From contig JOFO01000001.1 of assembly GCA_000721275.1 (NCBI GenBank), forward strand, positions 282,161 to 346,160: 64,000 bases of DNA, written 5' to 3'. The notes under the pieces were generated by a model. That model was not told the DNA's origin and searched no databases. It saw nothing but the letters and a program-made list of their open reading frames with translations. Source of the DNA: Microtetraspora glauca. Its GTDB lineage: Bacteria > Actinomycetota > Actinomycetes > Streptomycetales > Streptomycetaceae. Positions 9,600-20,464 of this stretch are shown here, piece by piece (the stretch's first letter is position 1; each line of letters begins with the position of its first letter). The translations under genes and the position numbers were made by a program.

Positions 9600-10163
9600 T
9601 CAGGACGGATTGTGGATCTTGTCGGCCCAGTTGGCGGAGTCGTGGGTGACCAGCCGGGAGTGGGTGTACAGCTCCCCGTCCCGCCGCACCAGCAGGTCCT
9701 CGACCACGGTGGTGGGCTCGAAGCTGACCCTGCCCTCGGCATCGGTCATGCTGACGATGGCCTGGTAGCGCACCTTCAGGGCGCCGTCTCCTCCGCCGTG
9801 GTCGTCGTCGGCAGGGTGGATCAGCATCCGGTCGAACCAGTACCGGTACACGAGCCCGTCGTAGTACGCGATGTTCTCCTCACGCGCCCGACGGGCCGAG
9901 GTCTCGTCCGCACGGGGCTTGGAGGCGTCCCCACGGCGGGCCGACATCTCCTTGAGGAGCTGCTCCTTGCCCTCGAAGCGCCAGCCGAAGGGCAGGTGCT
10001 CCAGGGTGCAGTCGTCGGTGAAGGTCTCCAGGAACTCCTCCAGCCTGCGGGCCTCGAGGAGAGGCATCTGGTGCGCGTAGAACTGCTGGACCTCCACCCA
10101 CAATTCGGCGCTGATCCGCGGCCGCCGCGGCCCGCTCGGCCGTGTGCTTCGGGTGGTGCTCAT
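9600..10163 (-). CDS. SnoaL-like / NTF2-fold protein, paralog 1
   Basis: A 187-residue protein of the SnoaL_4 type (cone-shaped alpha+beta barrel). Members of this fold in aromatic polyketide clusters act as cyclases, hydroxylases or isomerases, or protect unstable intermediates; the specific reaction here is unknown. The N-terminal helix ELWVEVQQFYAHQM and the C-terminal strand FEPTTVVEDLLVRRDGELYTHSRL match the second paralog at 20021-20464 (QTFYARQM; FQPTFLVEDELVRRNGKLLTRRR). Its ATG overlaps the P450 stop (ATGA), so it is produced together with that P450. The middle contains an Asp/His/Gly-rich loop not found in the other paralog. Confidence 0.8.
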   Translation of the reverse strand: MSTTRSTRPSGPRRPRISAELWVEVQQFYAHQMPLLEARRLEEFLETFTDDCTLEHLPFGWRFEGKEQLLKEMSARRGDASKPRADETSARRAREENIAYYDGLVYRYWFDRMLIHPADDDHGGGDGALKVRYQAIVSMTDAEGRVSFEPTTVVEDLLVRRDGELYTHSRLVTHDSANWADKIHNPS

Positions 10164-11401
10164 TTCGACTCCTCGGTGTCCCAGGTGACGGGCAGTTCCC
10201 ACAGGCCGTAGATGACGGCCCCTTCCTTGCGCGGGATGTCCTGGAACGGCGTGGCGAGCCTGAGCGTCGGGATCCGCTCGAACAGCCGGCTCCAGACGAT
10301 CTCCAGTTCCAGTCGTGCCAGGTCCGCGCCGATGCAGTGGTGGACGCCGTGGCCGAAGCCCAGGTGCTTGCGGCTGCCGCGGCTGATCAGGACCTTGTCG
10401 GGCTCGGGGAAGACCTCGGGGTCACGGTTGCCCGCGAGGCCGAGGCAGAGGATTCCGTCACCCTTGCGGATGGTCTGTCCGCCGATCTCGATGTCCTCAA
10501 GCGCCACCCGGGGGATGGCCGTGTCCCCGATGGTCGCGATCCGTACCAGCTCCTCGACGGCCGGCTTGACCAGCGAGGGGTCCTCACGGAGCAGGGCGAG
10601 CTGGTCGGGGTTCTCCAGCAGGCAGGCCGTGCCGAGGGAGATCTGGCTGGCGGTGGTCTCATGACCGCCGTTCATCAGCAACCGCACCATGTTGAACAGG
10701 TCCCGGTCGGTGTACTCCTCCCCCGATTCCCGGTAGTCGGCCATCGCCCGGCTCAGCAGATCGTCACCGGGCTCCTGCTCCTTGATCCGGATCAGCTTCT
10801 CCACATAGGCGTTGACCTCGACGATCGCCAGCTGGCGCTCCTCGGCGGTGCTGTGGCCGCCGAGCAGTGCCGTGCCGTGCCGGATGAAGAAGTCGTGCTC
10901 GTCCTGGGGAATGCCGAGGAGCTCGCAGATGACGGTCATGGGCACGCCCAGGGAGAACACCCGGTGCATGTCGACCGGCGGGGTCATCGCGAGCATCCGG
11001 TCAAGGTGGCCCTCGACGATCTCCTCGATACGCGGACGGAGCCGCTGCACCTGCCGGTTGGTGAAGGTCAGCGCGGCCTTGCGGCGCGTCGCGGTGTGCT
11101 CCGCGCCGTCGTATCCGATGAAGGAGGTCTCGGTGCGGAACTCGGGCGGGGCGATGAAGTAGAAGGGGAAGTTGGCGTGCTTACGCGAAGCGCTGACCCG
11201 CGGATCGGTGAGCAGTTCCCGGATGGTCCGGTAACCGGTCACCGTCCAGACGCGCAGCCCGGAGCCATCCAGGGTGACCTGCGACACGTCGTCCTCGATC
11301 ATCCCCGCGTACTCGTCCGGCACGCTGAAGGGGCACTTGCGCTGATACGGGAAGGTCTTCTCGCCGGCCTGTTCCGGGGGCTCGACGGCGCTCGTCGTCA
11401 T
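10160..11401 (-). CDS. Cytochrome P450 (third of three)
   Basis: A 413-residue P450 with I-helix motif LLMNGGHETTASQ, ExxR in EELVRI, and heme ligand signature FGHGVHHCIGADLARLE, so intact. The ATG at 11401 follows GAAGGGA and gives normal length; the longer open frame upstream is spurious. It lies between the ferredoxin reductase (35 bp upstream) and the SnoaL-like gene (4-bp overlap). This makes it the P450 most tightly linked to the dedicated electron-transfer pair, and its substrate is probably handed on to or from the SnoaL-like protein. Confidence 0.94.
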   Translation of the reverse strand: MTTSAVEPPEQAGEKTFPYQRKCPFSVPDEYAGMIEDDVSQVTLDGSGLRVWTVTGYRTIRELLTDPRVSASRKHANFPFYFIAPPEFRTETSFIGYDGAEHTATRRKAALTFTNRQVQRLRPRIEEIVEGHLDRMLAMTPPVDMHRVFSLGVPMTVICELLGIPQDEHDFFIRHGTALLGGHSTAEERQLAIVEVNAYVEKLIRIKEQEPGDDLLSRAMADYRESGEEYTDRDLFNMVRLLMNGGHETTASQISLGTACLLENPDQLALLREDPSLVKPAVEELVRIATIGDTAIPRVALEDIEIGGQTIRKGDGILCLGLAGNRDPEVFPEPDKVLISRGSRKHLGFGHGVHHCIGADLARLELEIVWSRLFERIPTLRLATPFQDIPRKEGAVIYGLWELPVTWDTEESK

Positions 11402-11436: not shown

Positions 11437-12696
11437 TCATGCGAGTTGCCGCTGATGGGCCTTGAGGTCGAACCCCGGGCGGGCGGCCTCGTCCGGGGTG
11501 AGTCCGGGACGGTCCGCCGCGAGCAGCCGCCGGACGGTGGCGTGGTCGGCAGGGCGGTTCACCGACTCGGCTCCGAGCAGCCGGTCGCCCTGGAAGCACA
11601 GGACGGAGAACCGGCGCCCGCCGGGGTCGCCCACGGTCACCGCGCGGTCGTGGCCGGCGGTGAGCCCGGCGATCTGGAGGCGCAGGGCGTACTGGTCGGT
11701 CCAGAACCACGGGACGGCCCGGTACGTGACCGCTTCTCCGCAGATCACGGCGGCCACGCAGCGGGCCTGGTCGGCGGCGTTCTGTACGGACTCCAGGCGC
11801 AGGTCTCCGCCGCCGCCCGGACGGGGGAAGCGGGCGCAGTCGCCGACGGCGTGGACGGACCGGTCACCGGTGCGCAGCCGGGCGTCGACGAGGACCCCGT
11901 CCCTGACGGCCAGGCCCGCTTCCGAGGCCAGCCGGGTGCGGGGCACGGCGCCAATGGCGACGACGACCAGATCGGCGGGGATCCGTTCGCCGTCCGCCAG
12001 TTCGACGAACCGGACGTGCCCGTCGGCGTCCCCGTGCAGGGCGGCCACCTCACGGGAGGTCGTGACGCGCACGCCCCGGTCCCGGTGCTCGTCGGCGAGG
12101 ACGGCTGAGAGCGCGGTGCTCACCGAGCGGGGCAGGAGCCGGTCCGCCGTCTCGACGACACGGACCGCGGCACCGGATGTCCGTGCGGCCGCGGCGATCT
12201 CCAGGCCGAGGAATCCGCCGCCGATCACGACGACGTGGGCGCTCGCGCGGAGCGCCGCTCGCAGGGCCCGGGCGTCAGCGAGACCGCGCACCGACAGCAC
12301 TCCGCTGAGCCCGGCGCCCGGAACGGGCAGCGTCCGGGGCCGGGCCCCGGTGGCCAGGACGAGGCGCCCGTACGGGACGTGGCGGCCGGAGGCGAGGACG
12401 ACGCGACTGCGCTCCCTGTCGAGGGCCAGCGCCCGGTCGCCCGGCACGAGCTCGATGTCTTGGTCCTTGTAGAACGAGGCGGGCCTCAGTTCCAGTTCCC
12501 GCTCCTCGTCCTGGGCCGGGCCGCCGATGTACCCCTTGGACAGCGGGGGCCGGTGGTAGGGCACGGTGTCCTCGTCCCCGATCAGGGTCAGACGCCCCGC
12601 GAAACCCCGGACGCGCAGCGCCGCGACGGTGTCGGATCCGGCCTGGCCCGCTCCGACGACGACGATCGGCGAGGCGGCCGCGGGCACGGACGCCAT
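11437..12696 (-). CDS. Ferredoxin reductase, FAD/NAD(P)H-dependent (putidaredoxin-reductase type)
   Basis: Passes electrons from NAD(P)H to the neighbouring [2Fe-2S] ferredoxin for P450 catalysis. The 419-residue protein shows the FAD dinucleotide fold VVVGAGQAGSDTV at the N-terminus, HRPPLSKGY, the second GxGxxG in VVIGGGFLGLE for the pyridine nucleotide, and VHAVGDCARF for FAD binding. The C-terminal ferredoxin-contact domain (VPWFWTDQYALRLQ) is characteristic of the putidaredoxin-reductase group. Its ATG overlaps the ferredoxin stop by one base (TGATG). Confidence 0.95.
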   Translation of the reverse strand: MASVPAAASPIVVVGAGQAGSDTVAALRVRGFAGRLTLIGDEDTVPYHRPPLSKGYIGGPAQDEERELELRPASFYKDQDIELVPGDRALALDRERSRVVLASGRHVPYGRLVLATGARPRTLPVPGAGLSGVLSVRGLADARALRAALRASAHVVVIGGGFLGLEIAAAARTSGAAVRVVETADRLLPRSVSTALSAVLADEHRDRGVRVTTSREVAALHGDADGHVRFVELADGERIPADLVVVAIGAVPRTRLASEAGLAVRDGVLVDARLRTGDRSVHAVGDCARFPRPGGGGDLRLESVQNAADQARCVAAVICGEAVTYRAVPWFWTDQYALRLQIAGLTAGHDRAVTVGDPGGRRFSVLCFQGDRLLGAESVNRPADHATVRRLLAADRPGLTPDEAARPGFDLKAHQRQLA

Positions 12697-13019
12697 CAGC
12701 TCTGCGCCTCTGGAAGGTGGACGATCAGCCCGTCGATCGCGTCGGACACCGGGAGCTGACAGCTGAGCCGGCTGGTCGGGCGGCGCGGGCAGGCCGTCCC
12801 GTACAGCACGTCGTCCTCGGACTCGTGCATCTCCGGCAGCGGCAGTGTGTTCGCCTCGTCGATGTAGACGTGGCAGGTGCCGCACTGGGCGGAGCCTCCG
12901 CACTGGGCCTCGATCCCGTCGATGTTGTTGAGCTTCGCGCCGCGCATCACGGTGTTGGGCTCGGGGACGTCGACGACGGTCTCGGTGCCGTTCGGGTGCC
13001 TGTACATGATCTTGGCCAT
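12696..13019 (-). CDS. [2Fe-2S] ferredoxin, putidaredoxin type
   Basis: A 107-residue electron carrier between the reductase and P450s. The cluster ligands are Cys40, Cys46 and Cys49 (CX5CX2C) plus Cys87 in SRLSCQL, the adrenodoxin/putidaredoxin pattern and not the [3Fe-4S] type more common beside Streptomyces P450s. The ATG at 13019 has GAGGAG upstream. It is the first gene of a four-gene operon (ferredoxin, reductase, P450, SnoaL-like) under a SARP-like box at 13094-13111. Confidence 0.95.
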   Translation of the reverse strand: MAKIMYRHPNGTETVVDVPEPNTVMRGAKLNNIDGIEAQCGGSAQCGTCHVYIDEANTLPLPEMHESEDDVLYGTACPRRPTSRLSCQLPVSDAIDGLIVHLPEAQS

Positions 13020-13093: not shown

Positions 13094-13111
13094 TCCTCGA
13101 GGAACCCTCGA
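13094..13111 (-). promoter_or_regulatory. SARP-type heptamer repeat upstream of the ferredoxin/P450 operon
   Basis: On the minus strand TCGAGGG and TCGAGGA are separated by 4 bp, an 11-bp period, 75 bp above the ferredoxin start. The expected -10 position 8 bp further (GCACGC) is poor, so promoter placement is uncertain although the repeat is clear. Confidence 0.55.
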
Positions 13112-13269: not shown

Positions 13270-13291
13270 CATCCCCCATCGGAGGTTCACG

Positions 13292-14734
13292 GTGGCCACC
13301 CAACGGCCCGACACCGCATCACCCGCCGTCCTGCTGCCCTTCTCCTCCCAGCGGCCCCACTGGTCACGGGGGCAGGACGGCGTCGAGTACGCCACCGTCG
13401 AGGTCCCCCGCGACTACACCGACCCGGCGGGCGAGCGTCTCACCCTCGCCCTCAGCCGCCGCCGCGCCACCGTCCCCGCCCGGCGGCGGGGCATCCTGCT
13501 GTCGCTCAACGGCGGTCCCGGCGGCGACTGGGGACTCGGCAAGGACCTGGCCGGCCGGTTCACCGGCACCCCCGTGCACGAGGTGTACGACCTCATCGGC
13601 TTCGATCCACGCGGCTTCGGCGACTCGACACGGCTGTACGCCGAGGTCACCGTCCCCCGGGCCCCCTTCGACTCCCGCCCGCCCGACTCCGACTTCGAGG
13701 TGATCGCCGAGGACATGCGGCAGCGGGAGCTCGGCTGCGCCCGCGGCGGCGGCGACCTGCGCCCCCACATCAGTACGTCCAACATCGCCCGGGACATGGA
13801 TCTGATCCGGTCCGCCCTGGGCGAGGAGCGGCTCAGCTTCGTGGGCTACGCGTACGGCACGTACGTGGGCGCCGTCTACGGCAGCCTCTTCCCCACCCGC
13901 CTGGACCGCAGCGTGCTCGACTCCTGCGTCAACCCGGAGTGGACCTGGTACGAGCAGTTCGCGTCCCAGGGCGATGCGATCCTGCGCAATGTGCGCCAGT
14001 GGGCCGACTGGGTCGCCGGGCGCGACCACGCCTTCGGCCTCGGCCCCGGTGCCGCCGAGGTGCTCGCGGCCGTGGAGGAGACCGTCGCCCGACTGGAGAA
14101 GATGCCCGACGGGGTCCATCTGCGGACCCTTCTCGACGGGGCGATGGGCTACCGCACCGCCGACCGGGGGCAATGGGAGAAGCTGGCCCGGATGGTCTCC
14201 GAGCTGCGTGAGGGCGAGGATGCCGCGCGGGCGCGGGAACTGCTCGCCGACCAGCGCCTGTGGCGCCCCTCGGACAACGAGGGCAAGCTGCGCAGCGGGG
14301 TCCTGGACGCGATCACCTCGGAGCACGACTGGCCGGCCGACCTGGAGACGTACTACGCAGCCATGCGGGACTTCCGCGAGCGGTACCCGTACGGCTACGG
14401 CGTGCTGCGCGCGCAGCCTTGGGTGAGCACCTTCCGTACCTTCACCCCGCCGGAGCCGCCCGTCGAGATCACCCGCGGGGACCATCCCGTGGGTCTGGTC
14501 GTCCAGGCCGACGGCGACATCATGGATCACGTGGCGGGCGGTGTCGCGATGGCCGAGCGGCTGGGCCACCACCTGGTGACGGTGACAGACTCCGGCGACC
14601 ACGAGGTGTACGTCCTGTGCGGCAACCCGCGGGTGGACGCGGTGGTGCACCGGTACCTGATCGAGGGAGAACTGCCCCCGCCCCGTGCGGAGATCCCCGG
14701 GGCCACACCCCGCCCGGACGTGCCGGTCCGGTAG
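13292..14734 (+). CDS. TAP-family alpha/beta-hydrolase lacking the nucleophilic serine
   Basis: Belongs to the tripeptidyl-aminopeptidase-like alpha/beta-hydrolases: oxyanion region LSLNGGPGG, IGFDPRGFGDS, and a C-terminal TAP domain ending in VDAVVHRYL. The nucleophile elbow, GYSYG in active members, reads GYAYG here: codon 187 is GCG (Ala). The acid (Asp407 or Asp409) and His437 (SGDHEVY) remain. There is no signal peptide, unlike the secreted peptidases. Loss of only the serine in a biosynthetic cluster suggests a non-hydrolytic role such as cyclisation, dehydration or binding. The GTG at 13292 has GGAGG six bases upstream, giving 480 residues. Confidence 0.88.
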   Translation: MATQRPDTASPAVLLPFSSQRPHWSRGQDGVEYATVEVPRDYTDPAGERLTLALSRRRATVPARRRGILLSLNGGPGGDWGLGKDLAGRFTGTPVHEVYDLIGFDPRGFGDSTRLYAEVTVPRAPFDSRPPDSDFEVIAEDMRQRELGCARGGGDLRPHISTSNIARDMDLIRSALGEERLSFVGYAYGTYVGAVYGSLFPTRLDRSVLDSCVNPEWTWYEQFASQGDAILRNVRQWADWVAGRDHAFGLGPGAAEVLAAVEETVARLEKMPDGVHLRTLLDGAMGYRTADRGQWEKLARMVSELREGEDAARARELLADQRLWRPSDNEGKLRSGVLDAITSEHDWPADLETYYAAMRDFRERYPYGYGVLRAQPWVSTFRTFTPPEPPVEITRGDHPVGLVVQADGDIMDHVAGGVAMAERLGHHLVTVTDSGDHEVYVLCGNPRVDAVVHRYLIEGELPPPRAEIPGATPRPDVPVR

Positions 14735-14805: not shown

Positions 14806-15927
14806 TCAGCGCAAGGTGCGGAAGAACGCGCGCAGTTCGGCCACCAGCGTCTCCGGCTGCTCCAGCGCCGGGAAATGCCCGCCGCGCTCGTGCTCGGTCC
14901 ATCGGCGGAGGTCCGTGAAGCGTCCCTCGATCCAGGGTTTCGGCATCCGGCCGTCCTTGGGGAAGACGGAGACGGCCGTCGGTACGGACACCGGGGCGAG
15001 CGCCAGCTTGTTCTGACTCTCCCAGTAGATCCGTGCCGAGGAGGCCCCGGTCGCGGCGAACCAGTTCAGCGTCACCGCGTCGAGCAGCCGGTCGAGCGGG
15101 ATCGTCTTCTCCAGATCTCCGTCGTGATCGCTCCACGCCCAGTACTTCTCGGCCATCCAGGCGAGCTGCCCCACCGGCGAGTCGGTGAGCCCGTAGCCCA
15201 GGGTCTGCGGCCGGGTGGACTGCAGGACCGAGTAGCCGCCCTCGTTCTGCTGGAACTCCTTCAGCGAGGCGAGTCCGGCCAGGTCCGCCGGGGAGAGTTC
15301 GACCGGCTCCCGCGGGGGCGGGGCGAACGGCATCGTCAGATGGATTCCCGCCAGCTCGGGACCGCCGTTCTCCCCCATGACGGCGGTGACGAACGACCCC
15401 CAGTCGACGCCGTGCGCCGCGTAGCGCTCGTAGCCGAGGCGGGCCATCAGCGTGGCCCAGGCCCGTGCGATGCGCTCCACACCCCAGCCCGGCCCCGCGG
15501 GTCTGTCGCTGAAACCGAACCCGGGCAGCGAGGGGCAGACGACGTGGAAGGCGTCGGCGGGGTCGTCGGGGTGGGTGAGCGGGCGGACGAGGTCGAGGAA
15601 CTCGACGAGGGAGCCGGGCCAGCCGTGGCTGAGCAGGAGCGGCATGGCGCCCGGGTGCGGGGAACGGGCGTGCGCGAAATGGATGCCGAGCCCGTCGATC
15701 TCCGTACGGAACTGCGGCAGTTCGGCGAGCCTGGCCTCCGTGGCACGCCAGTCGTAGGAGCCGCGCCAGTACGCGGCCCACTCACGGGCACGGGCCAGCG
15801 GAACGCCCTGCGACCAGTCGTCGACGGTCTCGCTCTCGGGCCAGCGGGTCCGGTCGATCCGCTCGTGGAGGTCTCGCAACGCCGCCTGGGGGACGTCGAC
15901 GCGGAACGGTGTGATCTCCTCGGTCAC
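14806..15927 (-). CDS. Epoxide hydrolase (EHN domain)
   Basis: Alpha/beta-hydrolase of 373 residues with the N-terminal EHN domain (VPQAALRDLHERIDRTRWPES). The oxyanion motif HGWPGS and the nucleophile elbow HGVDWGS with aspartate are intact, and a catalytic histidine is present near the end (RGGHFPALEQPE). It should open an epoxide to a diol, presumably one formed by a cluster oxygenase. GTG start at 15927 overlaps the upstream hydroxylase stop (GTGA). It ends the three-gene operon SRPBCC, hydroxylase, epoxide hydrolase. Confidence 0.92.
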   Translation of the reverse strand: MTEEITPFRVDVPQAALRDLHERIDRTRWPESETVDDWSQGVPLARAREWAAYWRGSYDWRATEARLAELPQFRTEIDGLGIHFAHARSPHPGAMPLLLSHGWPGSLVEFLDLVRPLTHPDDPADAFHVVCPSLPGFGFSDRPAGPGWGVERIARAWATLMARLGYERYAAHGVDWGSFVTAVMGENGGPELAGIHLTMPFAPPPREPVELSPADLAGLASLKEFQQNEGGYSVLQSTRPQTLGYGLTDSPVGQLAWMAEKYWAWSDHDGDLEKTIPLDRLLDAVTLNWFAATGASSARIYWESQNKLALAPVSVPTAVSVFPKDGRMPKPWIEGRFTDLRRWTEHERGGHFPALEQPETLVAELRAFFRTLR

Positions 15928-17069
15928 CGGGACTCCCCCCGTCGGGCGTCGGACGCGGTGTCAGGTCCCAGCAGGACGGCGGCGTGGCTGCGGCCCGCCG
16001 AGGTCTCGTACTGGAGGGCGACATGGCTGACGGCGACGGTGGCGTCGCGCCAATAACGCTGGGCGGGGTGCGCCTCGGAGAGGCCGCTCGTACCGGTGGT
16101 GCGGATCAGCGAGGTCACCGCCTCGCCGACGAGCTCGGCCGCCGCGGCGGCGTTGCGCTCGGCACGAGCGAGGGTCTGCGGGGTGAACTCGCCGGCGTCC
16201 GCGAGCCGGGCGTTCTCCTCGACGAGGAGGCGGGCGGAGTCGATGAGGCCGGAGGCCCGTACCAGCTGGATCTCCTTGGCGGGCATGCGCTTGCGGTCCT
16301 TGAGGGCCGCGCCGCAGACGTCGAGCATGCCGAGGGCGGCGCCGACCGCCGGCCCGACGAACGTCAGACCCGCGACCGCCGCGAACGGCACCCGGTGCAC
16401 GGGTGCGTCCGAGTGGACACACCGGCCGGTGAGCAACCCCGCACGGGCGAAGGAGAACCTCTCGGGCACCTGGACGTCGTCCACCACGACGGTGTGGCTG
16501 CCGGTCGCGCGCATGCCGATGGCGTCCCAGGTGTCGCGGACGAGGTACTTGCCCCAGGGCAGGGCGAAGAAGCGCAGCTCCGGCGACCCTTCGGCGGCAG
16601 GCACCGCGGCGCACAGGAGCACCCAGTCCGCGTGGCCGGCCCCGCTGACGTAGTTCCATGTGCCGTCGAGCCGCCAGCCCCCTTCCACGGCCCGTGCCCG
16701 GCCGCTCGGGATCAGTCCGGCCGACATCAGGACGTCGGCGCTCTCACCCCAGATTGCCTGCTGTCCCTCGGTGGGGAGGTGGGCGGCGAACCGGGCGGCG
16801 TACGCGGAGAGCGAGGCCAGCCACCCGCTCGCCGGGCAGCCCCGGGCCACCGCGAACACGGCCTGGGTCAGGTCGGTGAAGGAGCCCTCGGCGCCACCCC
16901 ACCGGGAGGCCACGAAGTGCCGTGCGGGCCCGTCCTCGCGCAGGGCGTGGACCACCTCTGGGGCGAGCTCGCGCGTGCGGTCCGCTTCGGAGGCGTGCAG
17001 GGCGGCGAGCTTGCCCAGCTTCCAGTCGACCCCAGGGACCCGTACTGCCTCCGCCGTCTCGGGTGCCAT
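15924..17069 (-). CDS. Flavin-dependent hydroxylase, acyl-CoA-dehydrogenase fold (ActVA5-like, two-component)
   Basis: Group D flavin monooxygenase of 381 residues that uses FMNH2 or FADH2 from a separate reductase to hydroxylate an aromatic polyketide, as ActVA-ORF5 does. It shows the acyl-CoA dehydrogenase fold landmarks: GGWRLDGTWNYVSGAGHADW, GMRATGSHTVVVDDVQVP, and a helical C-terminal domain ending around QRYWRDATVAVSHVALQ. The ATG at 17069 overlaps the SRPBCC stop (TGATG). The likely reductase partner is at 18497-19033. Confidence 0.9.
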   Translation of the reverse strand: MAPETAEAVRVPGVDWKLGKLAALHASEADRTRELAPEVVHALREDGPARHFVASRWGGAEGSFTDLTQAVFAVARGCPASGWLASLSAYAARFAAHLPTEGQQAIWGESADVLMSAGLIPSGRARAVEGGWRLDGTWNYVSGAGHADWVLLCAAVPAAEGSPELRFFALPWGKYLVRDTWDAIGMRATGSHTVVVDDVQVPERFSFARAGLLTGRCVHSDAPVHRVPFAAVAGLTFVGPAVGAALGMLDVCGAALKDRKRMPAKEIQLVRASGLIDSARLLVEENARLADAGEFTPQTLARAERNAAAAAELVGEAVTSLIRTTGTSGLSEAHPAQRYWRDATVAVSHVALQYETSAGRSHAAVLLGPDTASDARRGESR

Positions 17070-17536
17070 CACAGGGCCTTCGCGAAGCGGTCGAGGGTCT
17101 CGCCGGGGCTCGGCCCGTCGAGTGCCTGGAAGATCCGGCGGGCGCCCTCACCGTGCTTGTACAGCTTCACGTGCGCCAGTTCGACCCGGGTGCCGCCGTC
17201 GCCGTCCGGCAGGAAGTCCACCTCGATCTCGCTGGCCCGCTCGTCGTCCGGAACGGACTGCCAGGCAGCGTCGATCCGCCAGGTCATGACCAGTCGGCGC
17301 CCCGGCTCCCACTCCAGTATCCGGCCCCAGGCGATCTCGGTTCCGTCGACGTCCCATTCGTAGTAGCGCCCGCCCACGCCGGGCTCGAAGGCCAGCCCTG
17401 CCCGCTCCTTCCGTACGAGCACGTGGGAGGGCGGCCACCAGTCCGCCGGCCTCTGGGTGAAGACGTCGAAGCAGTGCCGGGGCGTGGCCGCCACGGTCAC
17501 CGACTTCCGTACGTCCGGGATCGTCTGTTCGGGCAC
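17069..17536 (-). CDS. SRPBCC (AHSA1-like) small protein
   Basis: A 155-residue START/SRPBCC-fold protein. The pattern VAATPRHCFDVFTQRPADWWPP, GVGGRYYEWDVDGTEIAWGRILEWEPGRRL and a helix at the end match AHSA1-domain proteins, a hydrophobic-ligand pocket fold. In this setting it may act as a polyketide cyclase or ligand carrier, but AHSA1 proteins are common and the role is not proven. GTG at 17536 has GAGGAGG just upstream. It is the first gene of an operon with the hydroxylase and epoxide hydrolase, below a SARP-like box. Confidence 0.8.
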   Translation of the reverse strand: MPEQTIPDVRKSVTVAATPRHCFDVFTQRPADWWPPSHVLVRKERAGLAFEPGVGGRYYEWDVDGTEIAWGRILEWEPGRRLVMTWRIDAAWQSVPDDERASEIEVDFLPDGDGGTRVELAHVKLYKHGEGARRIFQALDGPSPGETLDRFAKAL

Positions 17537-17588
17537 GGGGCCTCCTCGCTCGGTCGCGTATGGGTCCGCCCTCACGTTCCCCTCCCCC

Positions 17589-17606
17589 GCTCGAGCAACG
17601 CTCGAC
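17589..17606 (-). promoter_or_regulatory. SARP-type box in the divergent SRPBCC/ketoreductase promoter region
   Basis: On the minus strand two identical TCGAGCG heptamers are spaced by TTGC, an exact 11-bp period, 53 bp above the SRPBCC start. The plus strand reads TCGAGCA and TCGACAG with the same period toward the ketoreductase. A GAACGT hexamer about 9 bp downstream on the minus strand may be the -10. Confidence 0.65.
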
Positions 17607-17697
17607 AGCCGCCCCCGCTCCAGCGCAGAGCGAGAGCGGCACAAGGCCGGGCCCTCACCGTCGTACCCACCACGACCACGGCGAACGGGAGAACACG

Positions 17698-18483
17698 ATG
17701 ACTGACGCAGGACGACGGATCGCCTTCGTCACCGGCGCGACCAGTGGCATCGGCCTGGCCGTCACCGAACTCCTGGCCCGCCGGGGCATCGCGGTGTTCG
17801 GTGTGGCCCGTGGCCAGGAGGGCGTGGACGCCCTGGTGAAGCGGCTGCGTGAGGAGGGACTGGAGGTCGCCGGGACCGCTTGCGACGTGACGTCCACCGA
17901 GCAGGTCGGGCGGGCGGTCCAGGCCGCCGTGGCGCGGTACGGACGGATCGACATCCTCGTCAACAACGCGGGCCGCGGCGGCGGCGGCGAGACCGCCTCG
18001 ATCGACGACGCCCTCTGGCTGGACGTGATCGACACCAACCTCACCGGTACGTTCCGTGTCACCCGCGAGGTGCTGAGCACCGGCCTGATGCGCGAGAGCG
18101 GCTGGGGGCGGATCATCAACATCGCCTCGACGGGCGGTAAGCAGGGTGTGGAACTCGCCGCCCCCTACTCCGCCTCCAAGCATGGGGTCGTCGGCTTCAG
18201 CAAGGCCGTCGGCAAGGAGCTCGCGAAGACCGGCATCACCGTCAACGCGGTCTGCCCGGGCTATGTGGAGACACCGATGGCGGAGCGCGTGCGCCACGGT
18301 TATGCGCAGCACTACGGGGTGTCCGAGCAGGAGTTCCTGGAGAAGTTCCAGGCCAAGATCCCGCTCGGCCGCTACTCGACCCCGGAGGAGGTCGCGGGTC
18401 TCGTCGGCTACCTCGTCACGGACCTGGCGGCGTCGATCACCGCACAGGCGCTCAACGTCTGCGGCGGACTCGGCAACTACTGA
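17698..18483 (+). CDS. Type II polyketide ketoreductase (ActIII-like)
   Basis: SDR of 261 residues that reduces a keto group of the nascent poly-beta-ketone, typically at C-9. It is close to ActIII along its whole length: VTGATSGIGLAV cofactor motif, DVTSTEQV, LVNNAGRGGGGE, NIASTGGKQG, PYSASKHGVVGF with catalytic Tyr and Lys, NAVCPGYVETPMA, and the diagnostic C-terminus QALNVCGGLGNY. The last motif is practically restricted to type II PKS ketoreductases, so it fixes the cluster type although no ketosynthase is in the window. It starts a three-gene operon with the flavin reductase and the ActIV-like protein. Confidence 0.96.
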   Translation: MTDAGRRIAFVTGATSGIGLAVTELLARRGIAVFGVARGQEGVDALVKRLREEGLEVAGTACDVTSTEQVGRAVQAAVARYGRIDILVNNAGRGGGGETASIDDALWLDVIDTNLTGTFRVTREVLSTGLMRESGWGRIINIASTGGKQGVELAAPYSASKHGVVGFSKAVGKELAKTGITVNAVCPGYVETPMAERVRHGYAQHYGVSEQEFLEKFQAKIPLGRYSTPEEVAGLVGYLVTDLAASITAQALNVCGGLGNY

Positions 18484-18496
18484 GGGAACCGAGGCC

Positions 18497-19033
18497 ATGA
18501 CCAGCACCCCGGAAGCCCTGGCCGCGGAGCCCGACGCCGCCTCCTTCCGCACGGCGATGGGCCGCTTCCCCACCGGCGTAGCCGTGCTGACCCAGGGCAG
18601 TGGCGACACCACTCTCGCCCTGACCGTCAACAGCCTGGCGTCGGTCTCCCTCGACCCCCTGCTCCTGGTGATCGCGGTCGGCGCGGACGGCAGGATGCGG
18701 CGGCGGGTGGACCGACTCGGCAGCTTCGTCGTGAACGTGCTGTCCGAGCGCCAGCGCAGCCTGGCCCAGGAGTTCGCCCTGCCGTCCCGGCCCGAGGGGC
18801 CGGCCGCGATGCGGCGCCTGGGCGCGGCCGTCGGGGTCACGGGCAACGCCGTGATCCCGACGGCGGAGGCGTACTTCGAGTGCGTCCTGCACGCGGGTCA
18901 CGAGGCCGGAGACCACGAGCTGTTCGTCGGCCGGGTCGTGGCCCTCTCCGGCGCGTCCGCCGCACCGGATCCGCTCGTGTTCCACCGCGGTCGCTACACG
19001 CGACTGCCCCACGGGAAGAAGGAGTTCTCATGA
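18497..19033 (+). CDS. Flavin reductase (ActVB-like, HpaC family)
   Basis: A 178-residue NAD(P)H:flavin oxidoreductase that supplies reduced flavin to the two-component hydroxylase at 15924. It has the split-barrel flavin-binding pattern of the family: FRTAMGRFPTGVAVLTQ, ALTVNSLASVSLDPLLL, FVVNVLSERQ, and FHRGRY at the end. The ATG overlaps with the following gene's start (ATGA at 19030-19033). Position next to the ketoreductase mirrors actVB linkage to tailoring genes. Confidence 0.92.
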   Translation: MTSTPEALAAEPDAASFRTAMGRFPTGVAVLTQGSGDTTLALTVNSLASVSLDPLLLVIAVGADGRMRRRVDRLGSFVVNVLSERQRSLAQEFALPSRPEGPAAMRRLGAAVGVTGNAVIPTAEAYFECVLHAGHEAGDHELFVGRVVALSGASAAPDPLVFHRGRYTRLPHGKKEFS

Positions 19034-19947
19034 CCGCCCCGGTTGTCGCACCACCCTCTCTCGACCAGATCGCGGACGGGGTCCACGCCTATGTCCAGCC
19101 CGGCGGCGGGTGGTGCCTCAACAACGCGGGTCTGATCGTCGGCGACGGAGTCACCGTGCTGGTCGACACGGCGGCCACCGAGCACCGCACCCGGCTCCTG
19201 CGGGAGGCGATCGAGGGTGTCGCCCCCGGCGGCCCGGCCTTCGTGGTCAACACGCACTTCCACGGCGATCACACCTTCGGCAACGGCCAGTTCGTGCCGC
19301 GGGCGACGATCGTCGCCCATGAGGGGACCCGATCCGACACCGCGGAGGCCGGCCTCGCGCTGCGCGGGCTGTGGCCCGGTGTGGACTGGGGCGAGACGCC
19401 TCTGACGCTGCCCACGCTGACGTTCAGCGACCGGATGACCCTGCACGCGGGTGGCCTGCGGGTCGAGCTCCTGCACGTCGGCCCCGCGCACACCGCCAAC
19501 GACGTGGTGGCCTGGGTGCCCGAGCGAGGGGTGCTCTTCACGGGCGACGTGGCCTGGTCGGGCGTGACCCCGTACGTGCTGATGGGCTCCCTGAGCGGCT
19601 CGCTGCGTGCCCTGCAGCGTCTGCGGGAGCTCGGCCCCCGCACGGTCGTTCCCGGTCACGGGCCGGTCGGCGGCCCGGAGGTGCTGGACCGGACCGAGGC
19701 GTATCTGCGCTGGCTGGGACGGCTGGCCGAGGAGGGGATACGCGACGGGCTGACGGCTCTCGAAGCGGCGGAACGGGCCAACCCGGGCGAGTTCGGCGCG
19801 CTGCTCGACGGGGAACGCCTGGTCGGGAATCTGCACCGGGCGTACGCGGAGGCCCAGGGGCTCGCGCGCGGCGCGCGGATCGACGTACAGGCCTCGTTCC
19901 TGGAGATGGTGCGTTTCCACGGCGGCCTGCCCGCCTGCCACGCCTGA
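19030..19947 (+). CDS. Metallo-beta-lactamase-fold polyketide cyclase/thioesterase (ActIV-like)
   Basis: A 305-residue MBL-fold enzyme like ActIV, which catalyses second-ring cyclisation and release of the ACP-bound bicyclic intermediate. Zinc motif HFHGDHTFGN is intact, followed by GPAHTANDVVAW, FTGDVAWSGVTP, PGHGPVGG, and a family-specific C-terminus FLEMVRFHGGLPACHA. With the ActIII-like reductase, ActVA5/ActVB-like pair and SnoaL-like proteins this gives the window a benzoisochromanequinone-like enzyme set, though the P450s and sugar point to a different product. Confidence 0.92.
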   Translation: MTAPVVAPPSLDQIADGVHAYVQPGGGWCLNNAGLIVGDGVTVLVDTAATEHRTRLLREAIEGVAPGGPAFVVNTHFHGDHTFGNGQFVPRATIVAHEGTRSDTAEAGLALRGLWPGVDWGETPLTLPTLTFSDRMTLHAGGLRVELLHVGPAHTANDVVAWVPERGVLFTGDVAWSGVTPYVLMGSLSGSLRALQRLRELGPRTVVPGHGPVGGPEVLDRTEAYLRWLGRLAEEGIRDGLTALEAAERANPGEFGALLDGERLVGNLHRAYAEAQGLARGARIDVQASFLEMVRFHGGLPACHA

Positions 19948-20020: not shown

Positions 20021-20464
20021 TCAGGCCGGCGCGTCTTGATGGATGACCCGCCGACGGGTGAGCAGCTTCCCGTTCCTGCGGACCAGTTCGTCCTCGACGA
20101 GGAAGGTCGGCTGGAAGGACACCTTGGCGTCCCGCCCCGTCAGGGTGACCAGGGTGTAGTACGACACCCGCAGCAGGTCGACGTCCTCGGCGTCCGACTC
20201 GATCAGCACATGCCCGAACCAGTGTCGCGGGGCGATTCCCTCGTACCGGGGCACGTTCGCCGTCATTCCCGCGATCATCTCCGTGCGCCCCCGCTGCCGG
20301 GAGCCTCCTGCGTGGACGATCTCGGCGTCCTCGGTGAAGGTGTCTGCGAATCCCTCGATGTCCAGTGAGTCGACCCGCCTCATCTGGCGCGCGTAGAACG
20401 TCTGCACCTCGGCGTAGAGATCCCCGGTGACCTGGGGGGACGTTGCCTGGACCGCGTGCGACAC
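20021..20464 (-). CDS. SnoaL-like / NTF2-fold protein, paralog 2
   Basis: A 147-residue SnoaL_4-type protein, paralogous to 9600-10163. Shared landmarks are the first helix (LYAEVQTFYARQM), FADTFTEDAEIVH, GHVLIESD, and the last strands FQPTFLVEDELVRRNGKLL. The GTG start at 20464 has GAAGGGAG just upstream. It is a single-gene unit at the very right end of the cluster, facing the ActIV-like gene across a terminator. A cyclase/hydratase or chaperone role for an aromatic intermediate is plausible but unproven. Confidence 0.82.
   Translation of the reverse strand: MSHAVQATSPQVTGDLYAEVQTFYARQMRRVDSLDIEGFADTFTEDAEIVHAGGSRQRGRTEMIAGMTANVPRYEGIAPRHWFGHVLIESDAEDVDLLRVSYYTLVTLTGRDAKVSFQPTFLVEDELVRRNGKLLTRRRVIHQDAPA

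Follow-up and report, generated by a model that had tools for sequence, protein, structure and literature searches.

What chemistry remains to an alpha/beta-hydrolase fold once its catalytic serine has gone is the question raised by one gene in a 64,000-nucleotide stretch of Microtetraspora glauca DNA (hereafter, the window; positions 282,161 to 346,160 of the forward strand of contig JOFO01000001.1, assembly GCA_000721275.1). The open reading frame at 13292..14734 encodes a TAP-type protein in which the nucleophile is replaced by Ala. The replacement is the rule of the clade to which this protein belongs, and the loss of the nucleophile is, as judged from the alignments, a character of that clade. 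A first-pass annotation of the DNA had put the Ser-to-Ala exchange in its title as though it were a peculiarity of this gene; the exchange is real, but in this one respect the title misleads.

The reading frame begins with GTG at 13292, its stop codon ends at 14734, and its GC content by codon position is gene-like. The protein matches the Pfam families Abhydrolase_1 (PF00561, 3.7e-12) and TAP-like (PF08386, 1.1e-07), both above the curated cut-offs, and its AlphaFold2 model (mean pLDDT 93.5, pTM 0.92) has the common alpha/beta-hydrolase fold. The Asp and His of the TAP-family triad are present, and the catalytic Ser in G-x-S-x-G is absent. The features of the gene are the following.

13292..14734, plus strand: TAP-type alpha/beta-hydrolase-fold protein, TxnH1 homologue, nucleophile Ala, 480 amino acids.
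13281..13285, plus strand: GGAGG ribosome-binding site, 6 nt upstream of the GTG.
13850..13852, plus strand: elbow codon 187, GCG (Ala), within FVG-Y-A-Y-G (motif GYAYG), read from the sequence.
14516..14518, plus strand: Asp409, the catalytic acid, kept in 105/107 Ala members and 16/16 Thr members, and in the Ser group too.
14525..14527, plus strand: Asp412, clade-specific, Thr in Ser relatives (alignment of 140 versus 24 rows).
14600..14602, plus strand: His437, the catalytic base, kept in 107/107 Ala members and 16/16 Thr members.
14603..14605, plus strand: Glu438, specific to this clade; most Ser relatives have Gly (same alignment).

Several of the earlier observations on the gene are borne out. 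Ala187 with retained Asp409 and His437 is confirmed by the sequence, the Pfam matches and the 123-row alignment described below; a ribosome-binding site is present; and a signal peptide is lacking, in that no hydrophobic stretch occurs in the first 46 residues (best Kyte-Doolittle 12-mer 0.99, a crude hydropathy test). The proposed SARP-like box did not hold up as an established upstream element: the TCGAGGA/TCGACAC repeats at 13097 and 13108, 11 bp apart, cannot be distinguished from chance, with three such repeats observed versus a mean of 1.6 in shuffled sequences.

The alignment of 123 rows comprises the window's protein, 120 listed of 519 homologues and two genomic loci. At the elbow, 107 rows have Ala, 16 have Thr and none has Ser; His437 is present in 123/123 and Asp409 in 121/123. 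A lone mutation, a pseudogene or a sequencing error can be set aside, since Ala or Thr occupies the elbow in all 122 other rows, the frame is open and dN/dS is below 1 (approximately 0.2 to 0.6 in five pairs of relatives, none of which includes the window's own gene). Among 295 Streptomyces genomes, 25 have a match at E 1e-60 or better, 18 of them with Ala (the window's included) and seven with Ser, the latter at 37–48% identity; one of the loci from the Ala genomes (L023) is a partial match. The loci L002 and L007 come from one and the same record, so that some rows are duplicates. All 17 class-level matches from outside the genus (L051-L067, from 12 genomes) carry Ser. A search of plasmid records returned 20 records with a best identity of 43%, taken at the level of identity only. 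The database names among the listed homologues are hydrolase, carboxylesterase, peptidase or protease, which are probably wrong for all of them and should serve as a warning for annotators.

In the main tree, built from 52 rows with the elbow column removed, a single branch with support of 100/100 separates 25 Ser rows from 27 others, and a single loss of Ser is firm. The order in which Ala and Thr arose is less firm. The six Thr rows form one clade (100/100) that arises from within the Ala rows, but the next fork above it is poorly supported (89/76), and an earlier FastTree tree (164 rows, lacking the copies from genome G748 discussed below) placed Ala (0.854) and Thr as sister groups. The nearest Ser relatives are L024/L025, with placement support of only 94/76.

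A comparison of 140 rows with Ala or Thr to 24 with Ser, again not including the G748 copies, shows that more than the elbow has changed. Asp412 is present in 140/140 Ala/Thr rows, where Thr stands in 24/24 Ser rows; Glu438 is likewise found in 140/140, versus Gly in 19/24 Ser rows; and Gly81, within an insertion that follows the oxyanion motif GGPGG, occurs in 139/140 rows and falls in a gap in 24/24 Ser rows. Position 379 is Cys in 24/24 Ser rows, Gly in 136/140 Ala/Thr rows and Ser in the window's protein. With these new invariant residues the clade has a site remodelled around the former nucleophile. The replacement of Cys379 and the lack of a hydrophobic stretch at the N-terminus would fit a protein that was once exported and has become cytosolic.

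The window covers the right-hand portion of a type II polyketide synthase (PKS) cluster that starts approximately 39 kb further to the left. The type II PKS context claimed at first pass is therefore correct, although the ketosynthase itself is outside the window: the ketosynthase alpha subunit (KS alpha, C1:247107-248414) and the chain-length factor (CLF, C1:245887-247107) are some 47 kb from the TAP-type gene. The left end of the cluster contains an acyltransferase (AT)-type gene, an acyl-carrier-protein (ACP)-like gene, the CLF, KS alpha and a SARP-like gene (ACP and SARP named by eye). The SARP gene (C1:248861) and a ketosynthase III (KSIII)-type gene (C1:260570) in the cluster have names given by eye.

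Across the sampled genomes the Ala protein and this kind of PKS travel together. KS alpha is on the same contig as the gene in 16/18 Ala genomes, at distances of 19–50 kb, and G145 and G244, also with Ala, have an 89%-identical KS alpha on another contig; in none of the seven Ser genomes within Streptomyces does the contig with the match carry a KS alpha (E 1e-80). KS alpha of this lineage (at least 82% identity) is found in 15/295 Streptomyces genomes, each of which also encodes the Ala protein, and the remaining three Ala genomes (G013, G109 and G225) have a KS alpha at 66%. Genes resembling that of the gamma-pyrone cyclase TxnO9, at 53% identity or above, are present in 19/295 genomes, namely all 18 Ala genomes and G070; the number at E 1e-25 is 21/295, of which G197 and G236, at 40–45%, were left out of the count. 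Fisher tests of co-occurrence give p of 1e-22 and 7e-28 with genomes treated as independent, which they are not. The P0101 search of 249 family genomes adds six: four with Ala, one with Thr (G790) and G748. In G790 a KS alpha (69%) lies 16 kb from the gene, with a P450 at 66% and no ferredoxin match; in G702 the KS alpha is on another contig. P0101 itself, encoded on a 3080-base metagenomic contig, joins in one reading frame a TAP protein of the Ala type and a TxnO9-like domain, the latter 48% identical to its counterpart in the window.

No Ser homologue in the same type of cluster was found among the sequences and genomes examined. Recruitment away from serine hydrolysis, which the first-pass annotation had suggested, is well supported because Ala or Thr is clade-wide, Ser was lost a single time, new invariant residues have appeared and co-occurrence with one PKS type is strict in the 295 sampled genomes. 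A clade-wide exchange of Ser for Ala, together with a remodelled site and a tie to one antibiotic class, makes a clean case of fold repurposing, and the informative branches are still extant: the Ser sister, a basal pair without His, and the Thr branch.

The basal pair is found in G748 as two tandem copies with open frames, 47% and 45% identical to the window's protein (tblastn) and 26–29 kb from a 90%-identical KS alpha.

G748:C6:56395-57735: L118, without the elbow motif, the acid and the His.
G748:C6:53209-54510: L119, with GYAYG and the acid kept, Asn for His437 and Thr for Asp412.

Both copies lack Asp412 and Glu438, and both retain the insertion and Cys379. They branch at the base of the non-Ser clade (pair 99/94; remaining members 100/99), and because of this basal position the nucleophile is suggested to have gone before Asp412 and Glu438 arose; a secondary loss in the pair is a possible alternative. 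In the 60 kb fetched from G748 there is no P450 ortholog and no epoxide-hydrolase ortholog, and the ferredoxin match is 56%. L118 and L119 are natural candidates for a non-catalytic pair.

The genes around the TAP-type gene were compared in 12/17 other Ala genomes, those fetched across both KS alpha and the gene, with a relative counted at 45% identity or above; G065, G145 and G244 were covered partly, and G109 and G013 are outside the comparison. All 12 clusters have KS alpha, CLF, SARP-like, response-regulator-like, cyclase and KSIII-like genes (KSIII, SARP and regulator named by eye), and also the P450 at 10160, the ferredoxin, the TxnO9 ortholog, the ketoreductase and the metallo-beta-lactamase-fold protein.

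9600-10160: SnoaL-like protein; 4/12 clusters at 45% or above.
10160..11401, minus strand: cytochrome P450 (PF00067); 12/12 clusters, 63–89% identity.
11437..12696, minus strand: ferredoxin reductase (PF07992, PF14759); 10/12.
12696..13019, minus strand: 2Fe-2S ferredoxin (PF00111); 12/12.
14806..15927, minus strand: epoxide-hydrolase-type enzyme (EHN, PF06441); 10/12.
15924..17072, minus strand: acyl-CoA-dehydrogenase-type, HsaA-like hydroxylase component (PF08028; NF045629 below cut-off); 11/12.
17069..17536, minus strand: TxnO9 ortholog, CalC/AHSA1-like gamma-pyrone cyclase (PDB code: 5z36, TxnO9, E 4.9e-84); 12/12.
17560..18483, plus strand: ketoreductase (short-chain dehydrogenase/reductase); 12/12.
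18497..19033, plus strand: flavin reductase; 10/12.
19030..19947, plus strand: metallo-beta-lactamase-fold protein (PF00753); 12/12.
20021..20464, minus strand: SnoaL-like protein (PF13577), the last window gene common to related clusters; 11/12.

The window's cluster holds two SnoaL-like proteins (9600-10160 and 20021-20464). TxnO9 forms the pyrone ring, and the later tailoring to the DNA-alkylating spiro-epoxide is uncharacterized according to the accessible part of PMC9570651; in the trioxacarcin pathway one gene is singled out here. A strict tie of the Ala protein to the gamma-pyrone cyclase alone was rejected, since G070 (L155-L158, G070:C79:4503000-4582999) has a type II PKS and a TxnO9-like gene (73%) without the Ala protein. 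The 80 kb fetched from this genome contain no ferredoxin match and a P450 of only 39%, and the Ala protein may be linked more closely to the P450 and ferredoxin than to the cyclase, a lead from few cases. G070 offers a natural comparison strain.

One AlkZ-like DNA glycosylase of the HTH_42 type was found in the cluster (C1:274307-275410, L005:12147-13250; PF06224 8.4e-62, AlkZ 1.7e-31), approximately 26 kb from KS alpha and 7–8 kb to the left of the window. Near its start a HAQ seen by eye resembles the H-phi-Q motif of TxnU4/LldU1; trioxacarcin/LL-D49194-type clusters have two such glycosylases each, as given in the available portion of PMC8934636. The gene suggests that the product of the cluster may alkylate DNA. 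Because AlkZ-like relatives (at least 45%) are patchy, occurring in only 5/12 related clusters, and the Ala protein is present in all of them (the clusters having been selected for it), the Ala protein more likely works on the core that the products share than on a feature found in a subset.

We propose that a TAP-type serine hydrolase gave up covalent catalysis and that its descendant now acts in the cytosol, after the PKS. The His437-Asp409 pair would be the general base, taking a proton from a phenol or enol group of an anthracyclic intermediate, and the Ala elbow and oxyanion pocket (GGPGG) would hold the second reactant, most likely O2. The outcome would be a cofactor-free oxygenation of the electron-rich core, at a point in the pathway close to the reactions of the P450/ferredoxin and the gamma-pyrone cyclase. 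PMC10548524 describes oxygenases of the alpha/beta-hydrolase fold that can do without the nucleophile: a His-Asp pair removes a proton from the substrate, and the oxyanion hole accommodates O2. Because the window's protein shares the dyad, the oxyanion motif and the Ala with such printed oxygenases, non-covalent chemistry is quite probable, and O2 as co-substrate is suggested more tentatively. A core or early tailored intermediate is the likely substrate. Taken as a whole, the proposal that a non-covalent His-Asp enzyme oxygenates the anthracyclic core without a cofactor is plausible without being probable, and it is doubtful that the protein performs one of the unassigned oxidative or epoxide-building steps toward the trioxacarcin warhead. 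The first-pass annotation had offered ring closure, dehydration or substrate shaping; the printed precedents would favour cofactor-free oxygenation at least as much.

Several observations weigh against such an oxygenase. The chemistry of TnmK1 and TnmK2 of the tiancimycin pathway is not transferable by descent: these proteins keep the elbow Ser and belong to a different clade, made up of 13 Ser rows, and the approximately unbiased test rejects a tree that unites them with the Ala clade (p-AU 1.3e-5, for a group picked after the fold match was known). Ala is not simply the better residue, as the S101A exchange in the oxygenase HOD raised KM 60-fold and left kcat unaffected (PMC10548524, in the part available). 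P450s, an ABM protein and the HsaA-like oxygenase component are already available from the same cluster; one clade has Thr instead of Ala; and both G748 copies have lost His437, with L118 also lacking the acid, so some members may be non-catalytic. The same dyad and conservation data apply to a His-Asp acid-base catalyst of a non-oxidative core step (ring closure, C-C bond formation, decarboxylation, or epoxide or ketal rearrangement), in which Ala would make room for the substrate and preclude an acyl-enzyme. This is a real possibility, if not one that we expect. In the passage of PMC9570651 consulted, neither the decarboxylation nor the spiro-epoxide steps are assigned to an enzyme, and the best fold matches of the AlphaFold2 model include TnmK1 (PDB code: 8e19, in complex with tiancimycin H). 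The P0101 fusion with a TxnO9-like domain also points this way, but it is a single sequence on a short contig and may be an artefact. TnmK1 reportedly forms a C-C bond; a literature search for its name gave a single paper, on another subject.

It is improbable that the protein is a structural or carrier pseudoenzyme that binds or shapes an intermediate or partner enzyme, with a dyad no longer catalytic. The G748 copies do persist near their KS alpha without a working triad or dyad, but the pathway in that genome, with neither ortholog named above, may differ, and the near-invariance of His437 and Asp409 in the 123 rows would be unlikely for a mere scaffold. Continued hydrolysis is very unlikely, whether by direct activation of water through His-Asp or with Asp412 or Glu438 (or Thr in the Thr clade) replacing the Ser nucleophile. 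Two new invariant acids do adjoin the old acid and base, and acid nucleophiles occur in epoxide hydrolases of the alpha/beta-hydrolase fold; these acids are, however, on the acid and His loops and not at the elbow, where Ala, in 107/123 rows, provides no nucleophile. The cofactor-free oxygenase remains our preferred reading, and it has precedents: the literature already contains oxygenases of this fold without a nucleophile, as well as a polyketide oxygenase of the TAP type, and one clade member, TxnH1, is already named.

TxnH1 from Streptomyces bottropensis (P0065) is 63% identical to the window's protein over its full length and alike in GYAYG, the dyad, Asp412 and Glu438. It is a trioxacarcin-cluster protein by its database name, and the kind of cluster matches by name and organism only. 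No mention of TxnH1 was found in the literature searched: TxnH does not occur in the available parts of PMC9570651, PMC8934636 and PMC8707991, nor 'hydrolase' in those of the latter two. By comparison, the TAP-type hydrolase Hip1/CaeA (Rv2224c) is presumably of the exported type. It and other TAP-type hydrolases have an active Ser (Ser228 according to the titles of 9md7/9md8), unlike the window's protein.

HOD and AqdC resemble the window's protein in combining a His-Asp dyad with a dispensable nucleophile, and the AqdC elbow is naturally Ala (PMC10548524, accessible part). They act on quinolone substrates, unlike the core substrate proposed here. Neither was among the 50 matches listed in each of two fold searches, an absence that is no proof, and neither is known to be of the TAP type.

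TnmK1 and TnmK2 (PDB codes: 8e18/8e19 and 8g5t), although closest among solved structures, differ from the window's protein in the retained elbow Ser and in having Thr and Arg at positions 412 and 438. TnmK1 is without the insertion after the oxyanion motif, and TnmK2 has GPGDD there. Two loci of G006, L162 and L163, are TnmK2 and TnmK1 by their PDB-chain matches (E 0, 1081 and 1041 bits). The same genome carries this pair (C12:392266-395156) and an Ala-type protein in another cluster (C13:283750-285153). TnmK2 is counted among cofactor-independent oxygenases in the available part of PMC11181247. Because the TnmK1/TnmK2 clade stands apart and a joint clade is rejected, two branches of the TAP family were recruited separately to polyketide work.
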